Source of the DNA: an uncultured Ruminococcus sp.
GTDB taxonomy: Bacteria; Bacillota; Clostridia; Oscillospirales; Acutalibacteraceae
Assembly (NCBI GenBank): GCA_902785355.1
Contig: CACZYF010000009.1
Span: forward strand, 1-62,441
Length of the DNA: 62,441 nucleotides
Direction of reading: 5' to 3'
Every line of letters begins with the position of its first letter. Positions within the stretch are counted from its first letter, which is position 1. Shown one piece after another: positions 199 to 43,225 of the stretch. A program made the position numbers and the translations under genes. The notes beneath the pieces were generated by a model. It searched no databases. It saw only the letters and a program-made list of their open reading frames with translations, and had not been told where the DNA came from.

Positions 199-1416
199 AT
201 GGACAGAGGCTATCCGCGGGTGACCGTCAGTAGGAAGTGTGAGCGCTTTATCAGGGACGGTCATATCTGGGTCTATCACGACGAGATCAGGGAGATCAAC
301 GGCATATATGAGAACGGCGATATCGTGGACGTGATGACCGAGAAAGGGCGGTATCTCGGCTCGGGCTTCATCAACGATCACTCCAAGATCCGCGTGCGCA
401 TCCTGTCGAAGAACGCGAACGACCGCTTTGACCGCGCCTTTTGGCGTCGCAGGCTCGACTATGCCGTCGATTACCGCTTGACCGTGATGGGTGAGGATTT
501 TTCCTCCTGTCGACTGGTGTTCGGCGAGGCGGACGGCTTCCCCGGGCTGACCGTGGATAAATTCGAGGATGTTCTGGTGACGCAGGTGCTGTCGCTGGGA
601 ATGGATCGGATCAAGGAACTGATCTTCTCGGAGCTGATTGGCTCTCTGCGCGAGCGCGGATATGAGATACGGGCGATCTACGAGCGCAACGACGTCAAGG
701 TGCGCGAGCTCGAGGGGCTCAAGCAGTACAAGGGCTTTTATCATGCTGACGGGCTTCGCGATGACCTCGACGGCACGGTGGAGATCATAGAGAACGGCAT
801 AAAATACACCGTCGACTACGTCGAAGGACAGAAAACGGGCTTCTTTCTCGACCAGAAGTACAACCGACGCGCCGTGGCGAAAATCGCCGCGGGCAAGCGG
901 GTGCTGGACTGCTTCACCCACACGGGCGCTTTCGCGCTGAATGCCGCGACGACTGCGGAGCACGTCACCGCCGTGGATATCTCACAGACCGCTATTGATA
1001 TGGCAAAGCATAATGCCGCGCTGAACGGCTTGACGAATATCGACTTTGTAACGGCGAACGTGTTCGAGCTCTTGACCGAAGCGGACAGGGAGCACAAGCA
1101 CGACTGGGACATGATCATCCTCGACCCTCCCGCCTTCACCAAAAGTCGCTCCACTGCACATTCTGCGGAGCGCGGGTATAAGGAGATCAACCTCAAGGCG
1201 ATGAAGCTGCTGCCGCGCGGCGGCTATCTCGCGACCTGCAGCTGCTCTCACTTCATGCCCGACGACCGGTTCAGGAGGATGCTGTACTCAGCCGCAGCAG
1301 ACGCGAACGTCAGCCTGCGACAGATCGAGTGTCGCCAACAAGCGGCGGATCACCCCATCCTCTGGGGCGTAGAGGAAACGGATTATCTGAAATTCTATAT
1401 CTTCCAGGTGGTATGA
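199..1416 (+). CDS. Class I SAM-dependent rRNA methyltransferase (RlmI/RlmK-like)
   Basis: This 405-residue protein is predicted to methylate a cytosine of 23S rRNA with S-adenosylmethionine in the cytoplasm. It has the family layout: an N-terminal PUA-type RNA-binding domain (about residues 5-75), a linking EEHUB-like region, and a Rossmann methyltransferase domain. SAM motif I is VLDCFTHTGAF at 235-245 and the catalytic-site motif DPPAFTKS is at 309-316. The length is normal for RlmI (about 400). The ATG at 199 follows GAGAGGAG. The gene stands alone between its own promoter and a strong bidirectional hairpin. Family assignment is firm; the exact target base is not proven, because many Firmicute homologues are uncharacterised. 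Confidence 0.9.
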   Translation: MDRGYPRVTVSRKCERFIRDGHIWVYHDEIREINGIYENGDIVDVMTEKGRYLGSGFINDHSKIRVRILSKNANDRFDRAFWRRRLDYAVDYRLTVMGEDFSSCRLVFGEADGFPGLTVDKFEDVLVTQVLSLGMDRIKELIFSELIGSLRERGYEIRAIYERNDVKVRELEGLKQYKGFYHADGLRDDLDGTVEIIENGIKYTVDYVEGQKTGFFLDQKYNRRAVAKIAAGKRVLDCFTHTGAFALNAATTAEHVTAVDISQTAIDMAKHNAALNGLTNIDFVTANVFELLTEADREHKHDWDMIILDPPAFTKSRSTAHSAERGYKEINLKAMKLLPRGGYLATCSCSHFMPDDRFRRMLYSAAADANVSLRQIECRQQAADHPILWGVEETDYLKFYIFQVV

Positions 1417-29737: not shown

Positions 29738-31426
29738 TCAAATCTCGGACTTCATCGCTTCGCGACGGTTCTTGGTAGTGAATTTGATCACGAGCAGGGT
29801 TCCGATCATCAGCGCTATGCCGACAGGCAGGCAGATATACCAGCTCTGGACAAAGCCTGCGATAATGAAGCTGACAAAGGATACCGCCGCAACGGTGATC
29901 GCATAGGGCAGCTGGGTACTGACGTGGTTGATGTGGTTACACTGTGCGCCCGCGGAGGACATGATGGTGGTGTCGGAGATGGGGGAGCAGTGGTCGCCGC
30001 AGACAGCGCCCGCAAGACATGCGGAGATACCGATGATCTGGAGGGTGGGGTTGTCTGTAAAGATCGACAGGACGATCGGAATGAGGATACCGAAGGTACC
30101 CCAGGAGGTGCCGGTCGCGAATGCGAGCAGGCAGGCTACCAGGAAGATGATCGCGGGTAGGAAATTCTGTAAGGAAGCAGCCGCGCCGCTCATCATATCA
30201 GCAACAAAGTACTTCGCACCCATCATGGTAGTCATATTCTTGAGGGCGGTAGCAAAGGTGAGGATAAGGATGGGGGGAACCATGGCGAAGAAGCCCTTGG
30301 GAACCTGTTCCATCGCCTCCTTGAAGTTGACGATCTTGCGAAGCATCAGGTAAACGATGGTGAATACCAGCGCGATCGCGCCTGCCCAGGGCAGACCGAC
30401 AGTCGCGTCGGTGTTGCCGAATGCATCGATGAAGGACGCGCCCTCGAGGATTCCGCCGTTATAGACCAGCGCGAATACGGAAACGCCGATCAGGACGAGC
30501 ACGGGCAGGATCAGGTCGATGACCTTGCCGTTCTCATTGACGCCCTCGTTCTCGAGCTCGGTATCAACTCTGTCGCCGGTGGTGTAGAGGTCGTCCTTGT
30601 ACATGGCGTTGAATTCATGGATCGCCATGGAGCCGTAATCGAAGCCCATGACGCAGATGCCGATGATGAACACGAAGGTCAAGAGGGAATAGAAATTGTA
30701 GGGGATCGCGTTGATGAAGAGCTTGAGACCCTGACCCTCATCCGCATAAGAGGCGACAGCCGCCGCCCAGGAGGATACGGGAGCGATCATGCAGACGGGA
30801 GCCGCGGTCGCGTCGATCAGGTACGCGAGCTTCGCGCGGGAGACCTTGTGGCCGTCTGTCACGGGCTTCATGACGGAGCCGACCGTCAGACAGTTGAAGT
30901 AGTCGTCGATGAAGATCAGCACGCCCAGTACGAAGGTCGCGAGCATCGCGCCGGTACGGGTTTTGATGTGCTTTGCCGCCCATTTACCGAAGGCGCGCGA
31001 GCCGCCCGCCTTGTTGATCAAAGCGACGATGATGCCCAGCTCGACAAGGAAGATAAAGATACCCGCCGTATCGCTCACGGCAGAGATCAGACCGTCGGAG
31101 GTGATGGCGTCCATCGCCTTGAGGAAGTTGAAGTTCGAATACATCAGACCGCCTACGACGATACCGACAGCAAGCGAGGAATAAACCTCCTTGGTGATCA
31201 GCGCCAAGCCGATGGCGATGATGGGAGGCAGAAGTGCCCACGCGGAGCCGCGTACAGCGCCTTCGCCGCCGCAGGTCTCGCAGTCAGCGCCGTCGATGAG
31301 ACCGGTGCCGCCGCAGTCCTGACACTTGATGGTGCCCAGCGCGCCGCCCGATACGGCGACGTAGATCAACAGACCGACGATAACGACAGCCGCGATCGCG
31401 AGCACGATTTTGTTAGTCTTTGACAT
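29738..31426 (-). CDS. NhaC-family transporter under lysine riboswitch control, with N-terminal zinc-finger-like insert
   Basis: The 562-residue integral membrane protein has the NhaC fold: about eleven helices, with motifs GVLIFIDDYFNCLTVGSVM and CLAGAVCGDHCSPISDTTIM typical of NhaC/MleN antiporters. A lysine riboswitch lies upstream, so lysine uptake, as proposed for LysW-type NhaC members, fits better than Na+/H+ exchange alone. Between the first helix (about 7-28) and the second lies an unusual loop with Cys 35, 38, 49 and 52 (CQDCGGTG, CETCGGEG), resembling half of a DnaJ zinc domain. Substrate is inferred. The gene is single, with its own promoter and terminator. Confidence 0.88.
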   Translation of the reverse strand: MSKTNKIVLAIAAVVIVGLLIYVAVSGGALGTIKCQDCGGTGLIDGADCETCGGEGAVRGSAWALLPPIIAIGLALITKEVYSSLAVGIVVGGLMYSNFNFLKAMDAITSDGLISAVSDTAGIFIFLVELGIIVALINKAGGSRAFGKWAAKHIKTRTGAMLATFVLGVLIFIDDYFNCLTVGSVMKPVTDGHKVSRAKLAYLIDATAAPVCMIAPVSSWAAAVASYADEGQGLKLFINAIPYNFYSLLTFVFIIGICVMGFDYGSMAIHEFNAMYKDDLYTTGDRVDTELENEGVNENGKVIDLILPVLVLIGVSVFALVYNGGILEGASFIDAFGNTDATVGLPWAGAIALVFTIVYLMLRKIVNFKEAMEQVPKGFFAMVPPILILTFATALKNMTTMMGAKYFVADMMSGAAASLQNFLPAIIFLVACLLAFATGTSWGTFGILIPIVLSIFTDNPTLQIIGISACLAGAVCGDHCSPISDTTIMSSAGAQCNHINHVSTQLPYAITVAAVSFVSFIIAGFVQSWYICLPVGIALMIGTLLVIKFTTKNRREAMKSEI

Positions 31427-31485: not shown

Positions 31486-31502
31486 CGGAAAACAAAGCTT
31501 TT

Positions 31503-31658
31503 CGAATAGCACTCCGTTAAGAAACGACAGTACCACGCATCTTCTGCGTGATCCCGGCAGATGTACGTCGGGAAACGTACAGGAACCTCGGCGGTATCCC
31601 CTTTCACCGGCACATTCCCGTGCGTTATCCGGCTACTGATGAAGCCCGCGCCTCTATT
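31503..31658 (-). ncRNA. Lysine riboswitch (L box) aptamer
   Basis: The minus strand carries the ordered L-box core: GAGGCGCGGGCTTCA, AGTAGCC, GGTGAAAGGGGATACCGCCG, the GCCGGGATCACG arm, GGTACTGTCG and the closing GGAGTGCTA. The 5' GAGGCGC and 3' ends pair to form P1. It lies about 75 bases upstream of the transporter start. The class senses L-lysine and usually represses lysine synthesis or transport genes. Confidence 0.95.
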
Positions 31659-31668
31659 ACTAAAGTGT

Positions 31669-34739: not shown

Positions 34740-35891
34740 TCAGTCGTACTTAGCGCACTCGGGAGCGTTCGCCTTCGCGGATTCTTCGTCGAACCAGATC
34801 AGGTTATTCCCGGTCTCCTCGTCAAAGAGCTGGATCAGCTCGGGAGCAACGTCGAAGTTGATGGTGTTGCCCATGGATACGTCTGCGCCGAGACCGATGG
34901 TGGGGATGACCATGACGACCTCATCATCGCCGCTGACTGCATGGATGTTGTACTCGGTACCCATCATCTCGCTGACTTCGATCTTCGCGGAGAGCTTGCC
35001 GCTGCCGACGGTGATATGCTGCGGACGGATGCCTGCAACGATGCCGGTGGGCTTCTGACCCTTCGCCTTGAGCGCCTTCTGCTGGAAGTCGCTGAGCTCG
35101 AACTTCACGCCGCGGATCTCTGCAAAGTACTTGCCGTTTTCGAGAAGGAGCTTGCTGCCTTTGAAGAAGTTCATGACGGGCATACCGATGAAGCCTGCGA
35201 CAAAGAGGTTGACGGGCTTGTTGAAGAGCTCCTGAGGAGTACCGATCTGATTGACGAAGCCGTCTTTCATGATAACGATACGGTCGGCGAGCGTCATAGC
35301 CTCGGTCTGGTCATGGGTGACATACATGAAGGTGGTGTCGATGCGCTGGCGGAGCTTAATGATCTCGGCACGCATTTCGTTACGGAGCTTTGCATCGAGG
35401 TTCGAGAGAGGCTCATCCATCAGGAAGACCTTCGGGTTTCTGACCATCGCTCTGCCGATGGCGACACGCTGGCGCTGACCGCCGGAGAGAGCCTTCGGCT
35501 TACGGTCGAGGTACTGGGTGATGCCCAGGATCTGCGCCACCTCGTCGACCTTCTTGTTGATCTCCGCCTTGGGAGTTCTCTTGAGCTTTAATGCGAAAGC
35601 CATGTTGTCGCGGACGGTCATATGAGGATACAGCGCGTAGTTCTGGAAAACCATTGCGATATCTCTATCCTTCGGGACGATGTCGTTCATGAGGTTGCCG
35701 TCGATGTACAACTCGCCCTCGGAAATATCCTCCAGTCCGGCGACCATGCGCAGGGTGGTGGACTTACCGCAGCCGGAGGGACCGACCAGAACGATAAATT
35801 CCTTATCGGCGATCTTCAGGTTGACGTCATGTACAGCGGTTACTTTGTTGTCATAGATTTTTTTGATTCCTTTTAAGATTACTTCGGACAT
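34740..35891 (-). CDS. ugpC: Sugar ABC transporter ATPase (MsmK/UgpC type)
   Basis: The 383-residue ATPase energises CUT1 sugar importers from the cytoplasmic face. Walker A is GPSGCGKST, the Q-loop follows at [10 protein letters not shown], the signature is [12 protein letters not shown], Walker B is [12 protein letters not shown], and a C-terminal regulatory TOBE/OB domain (from about 235) is present. It probably serves the binding-protein/permease set transcribed the other way at 36.6-39.8 kb, and may be shared by other importers. The ATG at 35891 starts the conserved [13 protein letters not shown] but has no good ribosome site; GGAGGT lies 30 bases upstream with no start codon nearby. Confidence 0.93.
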
Positions 35892-35950
35892 AAAATCGGC
35901 TCTGACGGTAAAACCTCCGTGATACCGCCTCACGGGCAACAGCATAATAA

Positions 35951-35988
35951 GGTTGAGATTGCCGCGGCTGTTTATAGCCTGACAATGA
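35951..35988 (-). repeat. Interspersed intergenic repeat, copy C
   Basis: GGTTGAGATTGCCGCGGC and a closing GACAATGA mark a reduced, reversed copy of the family seen at 12431, 15494 and 61922. It lies in the leader of the ABC ATPase gene. Confidence 0.5.
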
Positions 35989-36000
35989 CTATATAATGTA

Positions 36001-36160
36001 TTGCTCCGCATATACGACAGGTCTCCACGCTGCCGCACCGTAAGCCTGACGGGTTGACAGTACCTCCTTTAGGATGTACGCCGCTCATAGTGTGGAGTGA
36101 GCAAGCGCCATGGGAATGGTTTTCGCCGAGATATACCTCGACGCCTTTAGTGTAAAGCAT
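36001..36160 (-). ncRNA. Putative structured RNA, class unknown
   Basis: The stretch is densely folded. An outer helix pairs TTGCTC (36001-36006) with GAGCAA (36099-36104). Inside it, CTCCAC (36023-36028) pairs with GTGGAG (36092-36097), enclosing stems CCGT/ACGG (36038-36052) and GTAC...GTAC with TCC/GGA (36060-36079). Three more hairpins follow: 36108-36119, 36127-36140, 36145-36157. A weak minus-strand promoter, TTGACA-N19-TATAGT (36174-36204), would start transcription just before the last hairpin, making this the leader of the ATPase gene. The plus strand also has a TATAAT at 35993-35998, so orientation is not certain. It does not match SRP, 6S, T-box or the riboswitch classes I know. 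Confidence 0.5.
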
Positions 36161-36204
36161 AAAAACGTAAATGACTATAGGCAGATGTCGTGAAAATATG
36201 TCAA

Positions 36205-36638
36205 AATGTTGTATTCTAACAAAAAGTCAATATTGGTATTTGATATACCATAAAGATAACTGCTGGAAACATCAGACAATATTATTTCGAAACCCGCATA
36301 AATACTGGGCTTCTCGCGGCTGAATCAACCCTGTCGGCAGGTCGGTTAGAAAAAATATAGGGAATTTTGTGCAACTTTCCTATAATTTTCAACAAGCAAA
36401 ACGAACAAACAAAAGACGTGATGTGAGGCGTTTCTGTAGAAAAAGCGCACAGATCGAAGCGGAAAAGTACGAAAAAACTTGCCAAATGGTAGCCTTTTTG
36501 ATATAATTCCAACATAATTCTATGTTTGGCTCACATCGAACCATAGCCAAATGTGAGATTAGGGAGTAAAATGGCGTTGTAAGCAAGCATGAGGAGGCTA
36601 CCTTGTGCAAAATAACAATTTTCTTACAGGAGGAAAAA
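36205..36638. other. Divergent regulatory gap, remainder
   Basis: AT-rich sequence between the structured RNA and the binding-protein gene. It has no believable gene. It holds the binding-protein promoter (36479-36507) and probably regulator sites, but I see no repeat that would mark an AraC-type operator here. Confidence 0.6.
36479..36507 (+). promoter_or_regulatory. Promoter of the sugar-binding-protein operon
   Basis: TTGCCA (36479-36484) and TATAAT (36502-36507), 17-base spacer, giving a leader of about 125 bases. Confidence 0.75.
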
Positions 36639-37976
36639 ATGAAAAAGATAGTTGCATTACTACTCACAGTTCTGATGGTTGCATCTGTTCTGGTTGCCTG
36701 CGGCGGAAATAATTCCGGCTCCGGCAGCTCCAAGGACAGCTCGGGCTCCGGCTCCGGTGCTAAGGCTAAGGCCATCACCGTAAACATCTGGGACTCCAAC
36801 CAGCAGAAGGGCATTCAGGAGATCGCTGACAAGTGGACCGAGACTTCCGGCGTCAAGGTCAATGTCGAGGTCGTTGACTGGGATAACTACTGGACCCTGC
36901 TCGAGGCGGGCGCTTCCGGCGGCACCATGCCTGACGTATTCTGGATGCATTCCAACACCGCTCAGATGTACATGGAGAACGACATTCTGCTCGACCTGAC
37001 CGATTATATCGCGAAGGACAGCTCCGTCGATATGTCCAAGTTCTATGAGGGCGTTAAGAACCTGTACACCCGCTCCGACGGCAAGGTATTCGCTCTGCCT
37101 AAGGATCATGACACCATCGCTCTGCTCTACAACAAGGCGATCTTTGACAAGTACGGCGTAGAGTATCCCACCGACGAGTGGACATGGGAGGATATGTACG
37201 AGGCTGCCAAGAAGATCACCGAAGGCTCCAACGGCGAGGTCTACGGTATGGCTATGAACACCTCTAACAACCAGGACGGTTGGTACAACCTGATCTACTC
37301 CTACGGCGGCAACGTTGTCGGCGAGGATCATAAGTCCACCAAGATCGGTTCCGACGAGGCTAAGGCCGGTATGGAAATGATGAGAAAGCTCCTCACCGTA
37401 GGCGCTCCTCAGTCCGTCGTTGCCGAGACCGGTACCGACTCTCTGTTCCAGTCCGGTAAGGTCGGCATGATCACTCAGGGCTCCTGGATGATTAACGCTT
37501 TCTACACTGCTGAGAACCACGCTGATTATTACTGGTCGCTGCTGCCCTACGCCGATGTAAACGGTAACGGCACCTGCGAGAAGGAAGAGCGCTGGTCCGC
37601 TTACAACGGTCTGGGCTGGGCTGCTTCCGCTGCTACCAAGGATCCCGAATCCTGCTACAGCCTGATCTCTTACTTCTGCTCCGAAGAGGGCCAGAAGATG
37701 CAGGCTGAAAAGGGTGTTACCATGGGCGGTATGACCGGCGTTTCCGACGCATTCGCGAATGCGTTCGACGGCATGGATATCTCCGCTTTCCTGAAGGCTG
37801 AAGAGTACAGCCTCTACTTCCGTCCTTACACCCGCAACACCACCGTTTGGGAAGATGCTCTCCAGCAGAAGGGTGCTTTCCTTGATCCTTGGCAGAATCC
37901 CGAGGACCCTGCTCTGATGGCTACTGCCTGCGACAATGCTCAGAAGATCATCGAGGACGCTATCGCTGCCGAGTAA
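36639..37976 (+). CDS. Sugar ABC transporter substrate-binding lipoprotein (CUT1)
   Basis: The 445-residue lipoprotein captures an oligosaccharide outside the cell for the downstream permeases. It has a signal peptide with lipobox LVAC (Cys20), a Ser/Gly-rich linker (about 23-40) and a type-1 extracellular solute-binding fold (about 45-440), with many exposed Trp/Tyr residues suited to sugar stacking. GGAGGAAAAA lies just before the ATG at 36639. Codon choice is more biased than in neighbours, consistent with high expression. Alpha-galactosides such as raffinose, stachyose or melibiose are the likely ligands from the downstream enzymes. Confidence 0.92.
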   Translation: MKKIVALLLTVLMVASVLVACGGNNSGSGSSKDSSGSGSGAKAKAITVNIWDSNQQKGIQEIADKWTETSGVKVNVEVVDWDNYWTLLEAGASGGTMPDVFWMHSNTAQMYMENDILLDLTDYIAKDSSVDMSKFYEGVKNLYTRSDGKVFALPKDHDTIALLYNKAIFDKYGVEYPTDEWTWEDMYEAAKKITEGSNGEVYGMAMNTSNNQDGWYNLIYSYGGNVVGEDHKSTKIGSDEAKAGMEMMRKLLTVGAPQSVVAETGTDSLFQSGKVGMITQGSWMINAFYTAENHADYYWSLLPYADVNGNGTCEKEERWSAYNGLGWAASAATKDPESCYSLISYFCSEEGQKMQAEKGVTMGGMTGVSDAFANAFDGMDISAFLKAEEYSLYFRPYTRNTTVWEDALQQKGAFLDPWQNPEDPALMATACDNAQKIIEDAIAAE

Positions 37977-38008
37977 TCTGTTTCAACAGAACTCTAATGA
38001 ATAATTTC

Positions 38009-38041
38009 GGCGAGCCGAACCGTACTGCGGCGCGGCTCGCC
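38009..38041 (+). promoter_or_regulatory. Intercistronic hairpin after the binding-protein gene
   Basis: GGCGAGCCG and CGGCTCGCC form a 9-bp stem without a clean T-run. Stems here usually stabilise the upstream message or attenuate read-through, giving more binding protein than permease. Confidence 0.7.
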
Positions 38042-38076
38042 TTGCGGCTTTATTAAATCTGAAAAGGAGGGGACTT

Positions 38077-38979
38077 ATGAAACAGAAAGCGCCTAAGAAG
38101 AAGCGTACCAAGGCGCAGAAGAGAGAAGCCATATGGGCGTTGTGTTTTATCGCGCCGACCATTATCGGTTTGATCGTGCTGAACTTTTATCCGGCATTTG
38201 ATACACTGTGGCAGTCCTTCTGCAAAACCGGCGACTTCGGTAAGGGCAATATCTTCATAGGTTTTCAAAACTATGCGAAGGTTTTCGCCGCGGGTGAGAC
38301 CTGGCATTCACTCTGGAACACCATCAAGTACGCGCTGATCGAAGTACCCTTCGGTGTCGTGATCGCGCTGATCCTGGCGGTATTCCTTAACAAAAAGCTC
38401 AAGGGAACCTCGCTGTTCCGCACCATCTTCTTCCTGCCCATGGTCTGCGCTCCCGCAGCGGTTGCCATGGTATGGAAGTGGCTGTACAACCAGCAGTTTG
38501 GTCTGCTGAATAATGTTTTCGGCACCAACGTCGCTTGGATCTCCGATCCGAAGATCGCATGGGTCTCCATCGGTATCATCGGCGTTTGGTCAGTCATCGG
38601 TTATAACATGGTTCTGTTCATCTCCGGCTTACAGGAGATCCCCGGCGACTATTACGAGGCTGCTGAGATCGACGGTGCGACCGGTATCCGCCAGTTCTTC
38701 CACATCACCGTTCCGCTGCTCTCCCCGACGACTTTCTTTATCGTTCAGACCCGAATCATCGGCGCTCTGACGATCTTTGACCTGATGTTCATGGTCATGG
38801 ATAAGACGAACCTCGCGCTCGAGAATACCCAGTCTATCGTTTACCTGTTCTACGATTATGCGTTCACACAGGGCAACAAGGGCTACGGCGCGACCGTCGT
38901 TATCTTCCTGGTCATCTTTATTATGATCGTAACCTTCATCCTGCAGCGTGCAGAGAAGAAGTTAGTTTATCATCCGTAA
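38077..38979 (+). CDS. Sugar ABC transporter permease 1 (MalF-like, CUT1)
   Basis: The 300-residue membrane protein has six predicted helices, a basic N-terminus (KKKRTKAQKR) and the EAA coupling loop YYEAAEIDGATGIRQFFHIT typical of CUT1 permeases, which docks onto the ATPase. AAAAGGAGGGG precedes the ATG. It is followed by the second permease 18 bases later. Substrate is inferred from the operon. Confidence 0.94.
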   Translation: MKQKAPKKKRTKAQKREAIWALCFIAPTIIGLIVLNFYPAFDTLWQSFCKTGDFGKGNIFIGFQNYAKVFAAGETWHSLWNTIKYALIEVPFGVVIALILAVFLNKKLKGTSLFRTIFFLPMVCAPAAVAMVWKWLYNQQFGLLNNVFGTNVAWISDPKIAWVSIGIIGVWSVIGYNMVLFISGLQEIPGDYYEAAEIDGATGIRQFFHITVPLLSPTTFFIVQTRIIGALTIFDLMFMVMDKTNLALENTQSIVYLFYDYAFTQGNKGYGATVVIFLVIFIMIVTFILQRAEKKLVYHP

Positions 38980-38997
38980 GAAAGGGGGAACTGATTT

Positions 38998-39840
38998 ATG
39001 CAAAGCGCTCGCGCAAGAAATATCGCAAGTAAAGTCGTGATGTATATCGTTTTGATCATCATGGCGTTCATCATGCTGGTTCCCTTCGTATGGATGATCC
39101 TGACCGCCCTGAAAACCAATCAGGAAGCGATCTCGGTAGATCCGTTCTACATCTTCCCCGCCCACGGCTGGCACTGGGAAAACTTTGCCGAGGTATGGCA
39201 GAGCTACAATTTTGTCGTACTCTATAAGAACACTCTTCTGATGATTCTGCTCCGCGTTGTCTGTGCATGTCTGACAGCGACCATGGCGGGTTACGCCTTC
39301 GGTCGTCTGAAGTTCCCGGGCAAGAACTTCTTCTTCGCTCTGGTTCTTGTACAGATGATGATCCCCGCTCAGATCTTCATCATCCCTCAGTACCTGATGG
39401 TCTCTAAGCTCGGCCTTTTGAACACCATCTCGGGTCTGGTATTCCCGGGTATCGTTACCGCGTTCGGTACTTACCTGCTCAAGACCGGTTACGAGGGTCT
39501 GCCGAAGGATCTGGAGGAGGCGGCTGACATCGACGGCTGTAACATCGGCCAGCGCTTCCTGCGCATCATGATGCCGCTGACCCGTTCCTCGATGGTATCT
39601 CTGGGTATCTTCACCGCTCTGTTCGCATTCAAGGACCTGATGTGGCCCATGATCGTCTGCACCAAGGCTGAGACCACCACCCTGTCGGCAGGTCTCGCGA
39701 AGATGCAGGGACAGTTCAGCAGTAACTATCCCACCATGATGGCGGCGGCTGTTCTGGCAGTTGTACCGATGATTGTTATTTATGTGATTTTCCAGAAGCA
39801 ATTTGTAGAAGGTATCGCTACCTCGGGCGGCAAGCTGTAA
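38998..39840 (+). CDS. Sugar ABC transporter permease 2 (MalG-like, CUT1)
   Basis: The 280-residue protein has six helices and the EAA loop LEEAADIDGCNIGQRFLRIM. It pairs with permease 1 to form the membrane channel. AAGGGGGAACT precedes the ATG. A terminator follows, so the transport genes can be expressed apart from the AraC/alpha-galactosidase genes. Confidence 0.94.
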   Translation: MQSARARNIASKVVMYIVLIIMAFIMLVPFVWMILTALKTNQEAISVDPFYIFPAHGWHWENFAEVWQSYNFVVLYKNTLLMILLRVVCACLTATMAGYAFGRLKFPGKNFFFALVLVQMMIPAQIFIIPQYLMVSKLGLLNTISGLVFPGIVTAFGTYLLKTGYEGLPKDLEEAADIDGCNIGQRFLRIMMPLTRSSMVSLGIFTALFAFKDLMWPMIVCTKAETTTLSAGLAKMQGQFSSNYPTMMAAAVLAVVPMIVIYVIFQKQFVEGIATSGGKL

Positions 39841-39884
39841 GGTTATTTCGCTCTATGGCGGATGAGCCTGTATAATTGACGTTT

Positions 39885-39919
39885 AGCCGGAGGTGTCCCG
39901 TAAGGTGCCTCCGGCTTTC
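39885..39919 (+). terminator. Terminator after the sugar permeases
   Basis: AGCCGGAGG and CCTCCGGCT form the stem, followed by TTCTG. It separates the transporter unit from the regulator/enzymes unit. Confidence 0.75.
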
Positions 39920-39939
39920 TGCATTGATTCCGTGAACAT

Positions 39940-40066
39940 TTATCAAAACCGGGCAAACTCTCTTGTATTAACCCCTGATTCATAAGCTTTGAGGCGTTAT
40001 AGTCAGAGTTTTTTAGTACGATTTCCTTCTTTTCCTTTTCTCCGATATACCGCCCGGTTTTGATAA
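39940..40066. repeat. Perfect 15-base inverted repeat bounding a 127-base segment
   Basis: TTATCAAAACCGGGC (39940-39954) is exactly mirrored by GCCCGGTTTTGATAA (40052-40066), and the match extends outward about three bases allowing one G-T pair. It lies between the permease terminator and the AraC gene. It could be a pair of regulator half-sites flanking the promoter, or the ends of a small transposed element; no clear target duplication is seen. Confidence 0.75.
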
Positions 40067-40114
40067 GTGCTTACAGTTTTACCGTAAACTACTGAGAAAG
40101 TAGGTGAGATCTCT

Positions 40115-41011
40115 ATGAATGATGAAATCAGCTTATACGGTGAACCCGGCCTATATGTGACGCCCAAGGTGCGATGCCTCGTCTACCAGAAGCGCGTGAC
40201 GGATTCGCTTTATTTGATGCTGTGTGGTCTTGAACACTGTCTGCCGGATTATTGCTTTGACGCGACCGGCAGATCGGGCTATCATCTGCATGTCATCCTG
40301 GAGGGCAGAGGCGTGCTTTCCGTCAACGGTAAGGAGACGGAGCTGCACTTCGGCCAGATGTTCATGACCAAGCCCGGTGAGGAAGCCTGGTACAAGGCGG
40401 ACAGCAACGACCCGTGGGTCTACTGCTGGATGGCGTTCGACGGCACGATCGCTCAGAAGTGCGCTGAGGAGGCGGGCTTTGTCAAGGGCGTCAACGTGCT
40501 CGACTGTCATGTCGATATTCGTCAGTTCTATTCAATCGTCGCGAAGGTTCTCGATCAGGCGGAGGTCACCCCCTCCAATGTTTACTCCCGCACCGGTCAT
40601 CTGCTCGAATTCATCAGCACGGCGGTACACTCGAACTATGAGTCCGAGAAACGTATCCGCAGGGTGCATCAATACCCCTCGGATGATTATGTCACCTACG
40701 CCGCGGACTTTATCCGCGCCAATTACGCGACCGCCAAGATCGGCGACGTCGCCAAGTTCGTCGGGCTGCACCGCAGCTATCTGACCAATCTGTTCAAATC
40801 AAAAATGGGGATATCTCCGCAGGAGTATCTGATGCAGTGTAAGCTCCAGCAGGCTTGCAAGCTGCTGGAGGAAACCGGTAATCCGATCCAGGAGATCTCG
40901 CGCCAGATCGGCTATGATAATCCCCTGACCTTCTCAAAGACCTTCAAAAACTTTTACGGCATCAGTCCCCGCGAATACCGTACAAGACATCTGAAGAATG
41001 ACGAATCATAA
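40115..41011 (+). CDS. AraC-family transcription regulator of the alpha-galactoside locus
   Basis: The 298-residue regulator has an N-terminal cupin-like sugar-sensing domain (about 35-165; GYHLHVILEGRGVLSVNG) and a C-terminal pair of AraC helix-turn-helix units (about 195-292; IGDVAKFVGLHRSYLTNLFK and IQEISRQIGYDNPLTFSKTF). GTAGGTGAG precedes the ATG. It is followed 24 bases later by the alpha-galactosidase gene, so it probably activates the raffinose/melibiose genes in response to the sugar. Confidence 0.93.
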   Translation: MNDEISLYGEPGLYVTPKVRCLVYQKRVTDSLYLMLCGLEHCLPDYCFDATGRSGYHLHVILEGRGVLSVNGKETELHFGQMFMTKPGEEAWYKADSNDPWVYCWMAFDGTIAQKCAEEAGFVKGVNVLDCHVDIRQFYSIVAKVLDQAEVTPSNVYSRTGHLLEFISTAVHSNYESEKRIRRVHQYPSDDYVTYAADFIRANYATAKIGDVAKFVGLHRSYLTNLFKSKMGISPQEYLMQCKLQQACKLLEETGNPIQEISRQIGYDNPLTFSKTFKNFYGISPREYRTRHLKNDES

Positions 41012-41035
41012 TCTGAATCAAAGGAGCCAAATCGC

Positions 41036-43225
41036 ATGAGTATCCGTTATATCGAAGAAACCGGGCAGCTTATCCTGGAAACGAGATCTACCAGCTATCA
41101 GATGAAGATCGACAGCCTCGGCTATCTCAATCATCTATACTACGGTCCGAAGGTAGAAACGACCGATATGTCCTATCCGTATCGTATCTACGATCACGGC
41201 TTTTCGGGCAATCCCTACGATATGCGCAATAACCGCGCCTTCTCGCTCGATTCGATGCCGCAGGAATATACCTCCTTCGGCGTAGGCGATTTTCGCGTCA
41301 GCAGTATCGCTGCGTCCTGCTCGGACGGCTCGCGCTGCGCGGAGTTCCGCTATGAAAAGCACGAGATCATCGACGGAAAGTACAGTATCCCGGGGCTGCC
41401 CTCCGTCTATGACAGCGGCGCTGTTGCCCAGACGCTGATCGTTACCCTGATCGACAATGCCGCCAATATCCGTATCAAGCTGTATTACGGTGTTTTCGAG
41501 AGCCTGGATATCATCACCCGTGCCGCAGAGATCAGCAACGCGGGCTACGAGATCGTGTGGCTGAGGAAGGCGTCCTCCATGTGCCTTGAGTTGCCGTTCG
41601 GCAAGTGGGATATGATCCATTTCCACGGCCGTCACTGCATGGAGCGCCAGCCCGAGCGCGTCCCGCTCTTCCACGGCATCCATACGCTCTCCTCCGGCAG
41701 AGGTATGTCCAGCCACCAGCATAATCCCTTCGTCATCCTCTGTGATCACGAAGCGACCGAGGACAGCGGAACCTGCTACGGCATGATGCTGATGTACTCC
41801 GGCAATCATAAGACCGAGATCGAGCTCGACCAGTTCGACAGCACCCGCGTGGTGATGGGACTCAGCGACGATCGCTTCCGCTGGGAGCTGGCTCCTAATA
41901 CGAGCCTGCATACGCCCGAGGTCATCCTGACCTGCGCGGACGGTCTGACCGAGCTTTCTCACCGTTATCACCGCGTCATCCGCAACAACGTCGTCCGCGG
42001 CGCGTACAAGCTCAGCCATCGTCCCGTGTTGATCAACAACTGGGAGGCAATGTACTTCGACCTCAATGAGGAGAAGCTCCTTGCCCTCGCGGATAAAGCC
42101 GCAAGCCTCGGCATCGAGCTCTTTGTCCTCGACGACGGCTGGTTCAAGAACCGCGTCGATGATAACGCGGCGCTCGGCGACTGGGTACCGGATGAGAAGA
42201 AGCTCCCGAATGGCCTCGACAGCCTGATCGAGAAGATCAACGCGAAGGGGATGAAGTTCGGACTGTGGGTCGAGCCGGAGATGGTCAGCGAGGATTCCGA
42301 CCTCTACCGCGCGCACCCCGACTGGGCGCTGACCGCACCGAACCGCGCCCCCATGATGGCGCGTAACCAGCTTGTGCTCGACCTCTCGCGCCAGGAGGTG
42401 CATGAATACATTTTCAATACGCTTTCCGATCTGTTGTCAAAATACAACATTACCTATATCAAGTGGGACTTCAACCGTCCGCTGTCGGACGTTTACTCCC
42501 GCTCCACCCCCTCGCCGCGCCAGGGCGAGGTCGCTCACCGCTATTACCTGAGCCTTTACAAAATCTATGAGCGGCTGACCGAGAAGTTCCCGAATGTCCT
42601 CTTCGAGGGCTGCGCGGGCGGCGGCGGACGCTTTGACGCGGGCATGCTCCATTATGCGCCGCAGATCTGGTGCTCCGACAACACCGATCCGATCTCCCGC
42701 CTGACCATCCAGTACGGTACGTCCTTCGGCTATCCGATGTCATCCGTCGGCGCGCATGTCTCCGCCACTCCGAACCACCAGACAGGCCGCCTTACGCCCC
42801 TGTCGACCCGCGGTATCGTCGCAATGTCCGGCGCCTTCGGTTATGAGCTCGATCTGCTCAAGCTGAGCGACGGGGAGCTCGCCGAGATCAAGGAGCAGGT
42901 CGCGCGCTTCAAGGAGATCGAGCCGATCGTTCATAACGGTCTGTTCTATCGCCTGAGTTCGATGCAGGAGAGCGGTCACTACTTCGCTTGGCAGTTCGTC
43001 AGTCCCGAAAAGGACCGCAGCCTCGTGAACATCGTCGTGACCAATCCGCTCGCGAACTCAACGCCCATCCATGTGCGCTTAAAGGGTCTCGATCCCGACG
43101 CGCTGTATTCCGTGGACGGCGAGTTCGAGTGCAGCGGCTCCGCGCTGATGAAGGCGGGCTACACCTTCACCCGGCTGACGGGAGATTATCCCGCACTGCA
43201 GGTGGATATCAAGCAAGTAAAGTGA
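41036..43225 (+). CDS. Alpha-galactosidase, GH36
   Basis: The 729-residue enzyme removes alpha-1,6-linked galactose from raffinose-family sugars or melibiose. The N-terminal beta-sandwich (about 1-320) precedes the (beta/alpha)8 barrel, with the nucleophile Asp478 in YIKWDFNR and acid/base Asp548 in CSDNTDPISR; WEAMYFDLNEEKL and FVLDDGWF mark the start of the barrel. Length and architecture fit the long tetrameric GH36 group. There is no signal peptide, so it acts in the cytoplasm on imported sugars. AAAGGAG precedes the ATG. Confidence 0.96.
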   Translation: MSIRYIEETGQLILETRSTSYQMKIDSLGYLNHLYYGPKVETTDMSYPYRIYDHGFSGNPYDMRNNRAFSLDSMPQEYTSFGVGDFRVSSIAASCSDGSRCAEFRYEKHEIIDGKYSIPGLPSVYDSGAVAQTLIVTLIDNAANIRIKLYYGVFESLDIITRAAEISNAGYEIVWLRKASSMCLELPFGKWDMIHFHGRHCMERQPERVPLFHGIHTLSSGRGMSSHQHNPFVILCDHEATEDSGTCYGMMLMYSGNHKTEIELDQFDSTRVVMGLSDDRFRWELAPNTSLHTPEVILTCADGLTELSHRYHRVIRNNVVRGAYKLSHRPVLINNWEAMYFDLNEEKLLALADKAASLGIELFVLDDGWFKNRVDDNAALGDWVPDEKKLPNGLDSLIEKINAKGMKFGLWVEPEMVSEDSDLYRAHPDWALTAPNRAPMMARNQLVLDLSRQEVHEYIFNTLSDLLSKYNITYIKWDFNRPLSDVYSRSTPSPRQGEVAHRYYLSLYKIYERLTEKFPNVLFEGCAGGGGRFDAGMLHYAPQIWCSDNTDPISRLTIQYGTSFGYPMSSVGAHVSATPNHQTGRLTPLSTRGIVAMSGAFGYELDLLKLSDGELAEIKEQVARFKEIEPIVHNGLFYRLSSMQESGHYFAWQFVSPEKDRSLVNIVVTNPLANSTPIHVRLKGLDPDALYSVDGEFECSGSALMKAGYTFTRLTGDYPALQVDIKQVK

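Follow-up and report, generated by a model that had tools for sequence, protein, structure and literature searches.

The folded RNA that precedes a sugar-importer ATPase gene in the window, the 62,441-nt stretch of an uncultured Ruminococcus sp. genome analyzed here, is a new copy of the known class malK-I (Rfam RF03069), and it probably works as a split ribosome-binding site. The predicted layout, in which a strong Shine-Dalgarno (SD) sequence lies far upstream, a folded domain occupies the space between and a pseudoknot stands near the ATG, is conserved over many genera. From this layout we infer both the bridging of the SD to the ATG and any regulation exerted by malK-I. The leader comparison gives this orphan RNA a testable claim on translation start.

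A malK-I copy over the start of malK

The Rfam match to malK-I on the minus strand (35886-36115) scored 94.9 bits against a curated gathering cut-off of 60.3. The match is full length (model positions 1-181 of 181), including P1, the AAAGGAGG stretch, P2, P3, P4 and the closing helix, and it spans the ATG (35891-35889) of a malK/ugpC-type gene, with its 3′ end just beyond. Membership in the class is thus indicated by the score, by coverage of the whole model and by the position upstream of and over the malK start. Within 35700-36400, no other Rfam family, including T-box, 6S and SRP, matched at E values up to 1, and a single malK-I copy, this one, was found in the window's genome. The product of the downstream gene matched ABC_tran (118 bits), OB_MalK (29 bits) and the UgpC subfamily NF008653 (460.4 bits, cut-off 432). 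The parts of the RNA are listed in Table 1.

Table 1 Features of the malK-I leader in the window
Feature	Position	Strand	Basis or remark
malK-I RNA (RF03069)	35886..36115	-	Full-length Rfam match; 3′ end slightly beyond the malK start codon
Hairpin P1	36077..36109	-	Rfam alignment; species-variable stem, conserved loop CUCCAC; 3′ edge set by reading
P1-loop CUCCAC, partner of P2-loop GUGGAG	36092..36097	-	CUCC/GGAG 99.3% paired; compensatory change in L127/L128
Shine-Dalgarno AAAGGAGG	36063..36070	-	malK ATG 171 nt downstream; not closely followed by a start codon
P0 hairpin	36038..36052	-	CCGU 36049-36052, loop CAGGCUU, ACGG 36038-36041; absent from the Rfam structure
Closing pseudoknot, 5′ strand GGCUU, within P0 loop	36042..36046	-	Complementarity to the pre-ATG strand
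Hairpin P2, loop GUGGAG (36023-36028)	36013..36037	-	10 pairs, 5 of them with changes in both partners; 99.2% of cells paired
Hairpin P3	35932..36009	-	Rfam alignment; long in this clade, 58 bases versus 5 model positions
Hairpin P4, purine-rich loop (CGGAGG here)	35904..35929	-	Rfam alignment
Closing pseudoknot, 3′ strand GAGCC	35898..35902	-	Ends 6 nt before the ATG
malK/ugpC-type sugar-importer ATPase gene	34740..35891	-	ATG 35891-35889; ABC_tran, OB_MalK and NF008653 matches

An earlier note on this DNA had described a folded RNA in the leader of the sugar-importer ATPase gene, which the match over the malK start bears out. It had also recognized no known RNA class in the region, and had named a secure hit to an established family as the finding that would speak against this. 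RF03069 supplies exactly such a match, above its cut-off, and the reading as an unknown class was dropped. The boundaries given there, 36001-36160, cut through the RNA, and the weak minus-strand promoter placed at its edge found no support: the only such site in 35600-36700 lies at 36392-36364 (9/12), and promoter-like sites on both strands of this interval numbered 5, compared with 2.9 ± 1.7 in shuffles. A TTGACA/TATAGT pair was seen by eye; its 19-nt spacer lies beyond the 16-18 nt range of the scan, and neither of the two closest relatives has its first hexamer.

Searches of open-licence papers with narrow terms, where malK-I is named in a single paper as a training set, yielded no published function for the class and no description of its pseudoknot, of a split-site reading or of the noc location reported below. 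The class was reportedly discovered by Weinberg and colleagues in 2017, in a paper that may already draw the pseudoknot.

Divergently from malK, an operon at 36603-43225 of the plus strand begins with a solute-binding protein gene (PF01547) and, by reading, contains two permease-like ORFs, an AraC-type regulator and an alpha-galactosidase. No ATPase was seen among these genes, and an operon without an ATPase of its own fits the malK product as a shared ATPase. Elsewhere in the window, a Lysine riboswitch (RF00168, 92.6 bits; 31499-31664, minus strand) directly precedes a gene of the Na+/H+ antiporter family (29738-31426, PF03553) that probably encodes a lysine-responsive transporter.

Helices conserved among related leaders

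Support for the predicted malK-I fold is comparative, and that from single-sequence folding is modest: folded alone, the window sequence gave a z score of −1.65, with 13 of 200 shuffles equally good. For the comparison, we used 140 leaders, which remained from 146 loci once 4 duplicates and 2 loci lacking a start had been removed.

The Rfam structure line leaves CCGc and GCGG, which flank the closing strand, unpaired, and it contains neither P0 nor the contact between P1 and P2. In 137 of the 140 leaders, a 4-nt strand is complementary to the four nucleotides that open the core, a count that allows G-U pairs and the best of several registers and could by itself be partly chance; the evidence lies in covariation. 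Across 106 distinct joined rows, the four pairs of P0 (CCGY/RCGG) were formed in 99.5% of cells, with changes in both partners for three of the pairs, the loop-adjacent pair being C-G in 60 rows, U-A in 21, U-G in 16, G-C in 7 and unpaired in 2. The covariation score of P0, P2 and the loop contact, counted per distinct sequence rather than per evolutionary event among mutually related leaders, was 0.153, compared with 0.077 ± 0.004 for column shuffles and at most 0.072 for slid structures.

Because the P0 loop holds the 5′ strand of the Rfam closing helix, P0 and this helix together make a pseudoknot. Complementarity between the P0 loop and the pre-ATG strand was 13.24 within leaders versus 9.98 ± 0.20 in re-paired leaders, the 3′ strand being placed by best complementarity in an identical search of both. 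The predicted pseudoknot helix has at least five pairs in 125 of 137 leaders and only 3-4 pairs in the other 12. Its 3′ strand lies 6 nt from the start codon in the window and 5-8 nt from it in 119 of the 137 leaders; because the conserved fold stops this short of the malK ATG, a stand-alone RNA, which the earlier note had offered as an option, is unlikely.

The earlier note had also drawn two long-range helices and had suggested aligning related genomes to look for changes that keep the pairs. Both helices are present as plus-strand letters (TTGCTC 36001-36006 with GAGCAA 36099-36104, and CTCCAC 36023-36028 with GTGGAG 36092-36097); the Rfam match places the RNA on the minus strand. In the alignment, the two fared differently. 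CTCCAC/GTGGAG is conserved and corresponds to the contact between the loops of P1 and P2: its four inner pairs, CUCC/GGAG, were formed in 99.3% of cells of the 106 distinct joined rows, most of which had been collected by a DNA pattern containing GTGGAG, with P1 loops mostly located via CTCC. Among 55 leaders found by covariance-model or protein search, with no DNA pattern, the P2 loop reads GTGGAG in 52, GTAGAG in 2 and GCGGAG in 1, and CTCC stands upstream in 52. A compensatory change from C-G to U-A occurs in two rows, L127 and L128, which belong to the same genus and were counted as one event. TTGCTC/GAGCAA, in contrast, is a chance pairing. Both hexamers are present in only 2 of 130 leaders (the window and L063), and P3 differs in the two nearest relatives, which carry GAGTGT in place of the window hexamer. 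Complementarity between the P1 and P3 strands was 11.31 within leaders and 11.20 ± 0.23 in re-paired leaders, no better than re-pairing, and this helix was dropped.

The loop contact bears on whether malK-I might instead be a masking translational riboswitch, in which a ligand would choose between pairing of the P1 CUCC with the SD GGAG (off) and with the P2 GGAG (on). The CUCC is indeed able to pair with both, and in the window's clade GUACAUCC, which adjoins the SD on its 5′ side (36060-36079), could mask the SD as well. On the question of two exclusive structures, however, the few variant P1 loops change with P2 and not with the SD: CUCUAC occurs with GUAGAG in L127 and L128, and AUCCACA in L052 and L062 can pair with UGUGGA of P2 while the SD remains AAGGAGG. 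A masking riboswitch, which would also leave the absence of an SD at the ATG unexplained, is unlikely in our judgment.

As a separate observation, GUACAUCC (36060-36079, minus strand) can fold back onto the SD as GUAC-A-UCC-UAAA-GGA-G-GUAC. By eye, this fold-back is not evident in most relatives, and it is possibly a clade-specific mask.

Ribosome signals and a putative split ribosome-binding site

SD sequences were scored by the length of the longest stretch that exactly matches the 16S 3′-end complement. A match of at least 6 nt is present within 40 nt upstream of the core in 134 of the 140 leaders, an arrangement in which, by sequence, the ribosome-binding site encloses a folded domain; of the six leaders without such a match, one (L067) lacks sequence there. 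At −20 to −4 of the gene start, no leader has a match of at least 6 nt and 7 of 140 have one of 5 nt, and extending the interval to −25 gave 9 of 140 with 5 nt and none with 6. Of the 55 leaders found without a DNA pattern, 24 of which overlap the 140, an upstream SD of at least 6 nt is present in 51 and a start-proximal one in none. As a control, we retrieved 30 related malK loci, of which 27 are without the RNA and 3 carry it (the window, L148 and L149). All 27 loci without a malK-I core have an SD match of 5-8 nt at −20 to −4, with GGAGG 7-11 nt before the ATG. The window and the two others, L148 and L149 (malK 92% identical), carry malK-I without a near SD. The second malK gene of the window's genome has GGAGGT near its start and no malK-I match.

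The linear distance from the SD to the ATG ranges from 105 to 184 nt, with a median of 118 nt and 171 nt in the window. In 131 of 137 leaders, with six outliers left out, the SD stands 7.8 ± 2.4 nt from P0 and the pseudoknot strand 6.7 ± 1.3 nt from the gene start; among the outliers, the start codons of at least L015 and L033, with gaps of 17 and 16 nt, were probably mispicked by the script. The pseudoknot strand thereby stands at, or slightly nearer than, the distance at which the control genes hold their SD. The two distances do not compensate for each other (correlation −0.08), and we therefore see no selection for an exact effective spacing.

An upstream SD that serves a small leader ORF was considered and dropped, since no conserved start codon follows it: at 3-15 nt behind the SD, ATG occurs in 8, GTG in 7 and TTG in 15 of 139 leaders. 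Directly after P2, 72 of 140 leaders have an ATG, 26 of these 72 in the frame of the gene and 18 of those open, which is about the chance expectation, and for the GTG in P2 an open frame in register with the gene was seen in 4 of 129 leaders.

We propose that the two halves of the ribosome-binding site would be joined by the fold itself. In the window, the putative SD AAAGGAGG lies 171 nt upstream of the malK ATG, with none adjoining the ATG; the intervening stretch would fold as P0, P2, P3 and P4, and the P0 loop would pair with the strand whose end lies 6 nt from the ATG. With the pseudoknot closed, the SD and the ATG would be separated by ~8 nt, a 4-bp helix and ~7 nt, instead of more than 100 nt, and a 30S subunit could use the distant SD and the ATG together. 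With the pseudoknot open, the ATG would be left without an SD and would be poorly translated. The contact between the P1 and P2 loops may brace the closed form and prevent the P1 CUCC from covering the SD. In this scheme the folded leader would activate translation, whether constitutively or upon some signal, and a folded on state would be the opposite of a conventional masking switch. We see even chances that malK-I RNAs in general are folded bridges of this kind, in which the SD and the start flank a domain of more than 100 nt, closure of the pseudoknot assembles the ribosome-binding site and the whole is portable between genes, as the noc location reported below suggests.

Some observations count against a split site. 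In nested folding, which excludes pseudoknots, the SD is about half free, with a mean unpaired value of 0.48 (0.44 in the window; at least 0.5 in 56 of 136 leaders), and a GGAGG often lies nearer the ATG, in the P4 region at −60 to −18, where 112 of 140 leaders have an SD match of at least 5 nt. The latter would suit a reading in which the P4-loop GGAGG serves as the SD, leaving the upstream AAAGGAGG only a standby or structural role. At an equal threshold of at least 6 nt, however, the P4 region has a match in 21 of 140 leaders versus 134 of 140 for the upstream SD. Moreover, 28 of 140 have at most 4 nt there, the GGAGG having been lost in divergent members including L122, L127 and L128, and the window's GGAGG ends 22 nt short of the ATG, from which a stem arm separates it. 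We regard a working SD in P4 as quite improbable.

Distribution, gene context and comparison with known systems

Carriers of malK-I, the window's genome included, made up 2 of 200 genomes in the family, 31 of 394 in the order, 4 of 391 in the class and 3 of 398 in the phylum, with 16 of 41 in one family of the order and 3 of 18, 2 of 5 and 1 of 12 in three other families; counts from searches over more than 40 genomes, which used stricter filters, are lower bounds. The gene behind the RNA is malK in 138 of 140 leaders, 132 of them recognized by a Walker motif and the first residues and 6 by the first codons only. In two congeneric species from another part of the phylum (L127, 68.7 bits; L128, 47.8 bits, below the cut-off), malK-I precedes noc instead. 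The gene downstream of L127 matched the nucleoid occlusion protein family TIGR04285 with 341.6 bits (cut-off 315), and by reading a parA-like gene follows noc in both. These leaders retain the distant SD, P0, the pseudoknot and, in compensated form, the loop contact. As judged from these sequences, the noc location, which we count as one event, argues against a device specific to sugar or to MalK.

Further noc leaders were sought by an approximate core search of 30 noc/parB loci of G834 relatives, which found the malK-I core only in the two known ones; 6 of the 30 loci gave no start and lay outside the search, and 3 others gave unrelated strings of low similarity. Rfam, run on six of these loci, returned malK-I only in the one already known.

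The gene context also bears on a protein-bound operator, recognized either by MalK itself or by CsrA on the GGA motifs of the loops, which we consider very improbable. The near-constant presence of malK behind the RNA (138 of 140) would suit the former, and GGA in two loops and the SD resembles CsrA sites. The noc leaders, though, are a poor fit to autoregulation by MalK, and CsrA (PF02599) is absent from 19 of 26 carrier genomes, the window's own among them; the CsrA operator was therefore dropped.

Several further copies were noted in passing. In L232 (G1274; 787-970, minus strand), malK-I is represented by its 5′ half, which continues directly into a solute-binding protein-like frame, reflecting either a rearrangement or an assembly fault. 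L122 (4031-4208) carries a malK-I RNA and a malK reading close to that of the window, on a contig labelled Flexilinea, which we take to belong to Chloroflexota; either inter-phylum transfer or a binning fault would account for it. Two copies per genome were present in G511, G1002, G1114, G1204, G1301 and G1333, and the second copies in the last four (L233-L236) precede malK genes.

If malK-I is a split ribosome-binding site, it would be a natural case in which assembly of the site switches translation on, and it would help in reading long conserved leaders and in building switches; the noc location would show that such a device is not tied to sugar uptake.

Relative to the Rfam description of malK-I, the window's copy has the same core letters and the same position over the malK start codon. 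It differs in its longer P3, and P0 and the P1-P2 contact lie outside the Rfam structure line. In phage T4 gene 38, a small hairpin between the SD and the start codon shortens the spacing, whereas malK-I has a domain of more than 100 nt with a pseudoknot. In the E. coli thrS mRNA, the SD adjoins the start codon, and a plain single strand forms the remote portion; malK-I, by contrast, has the SD itself as its remote portion, and a start-proximal SD of at least 6 nt occurs in 0 of 140 leaders. Common to both is a folded domain within the ribosome-binding site, and the thrS study describes a ribosome that accommodates the hairpin within its split site (PMC3936740). In the rpsA leader of gamma-proteobacteria, a specific fold replaces a canonical SD, under autoregulation by protein S1 (PMC10931766); malK-I is likewise based on a fold, but possesses a strong, if distant, SD.
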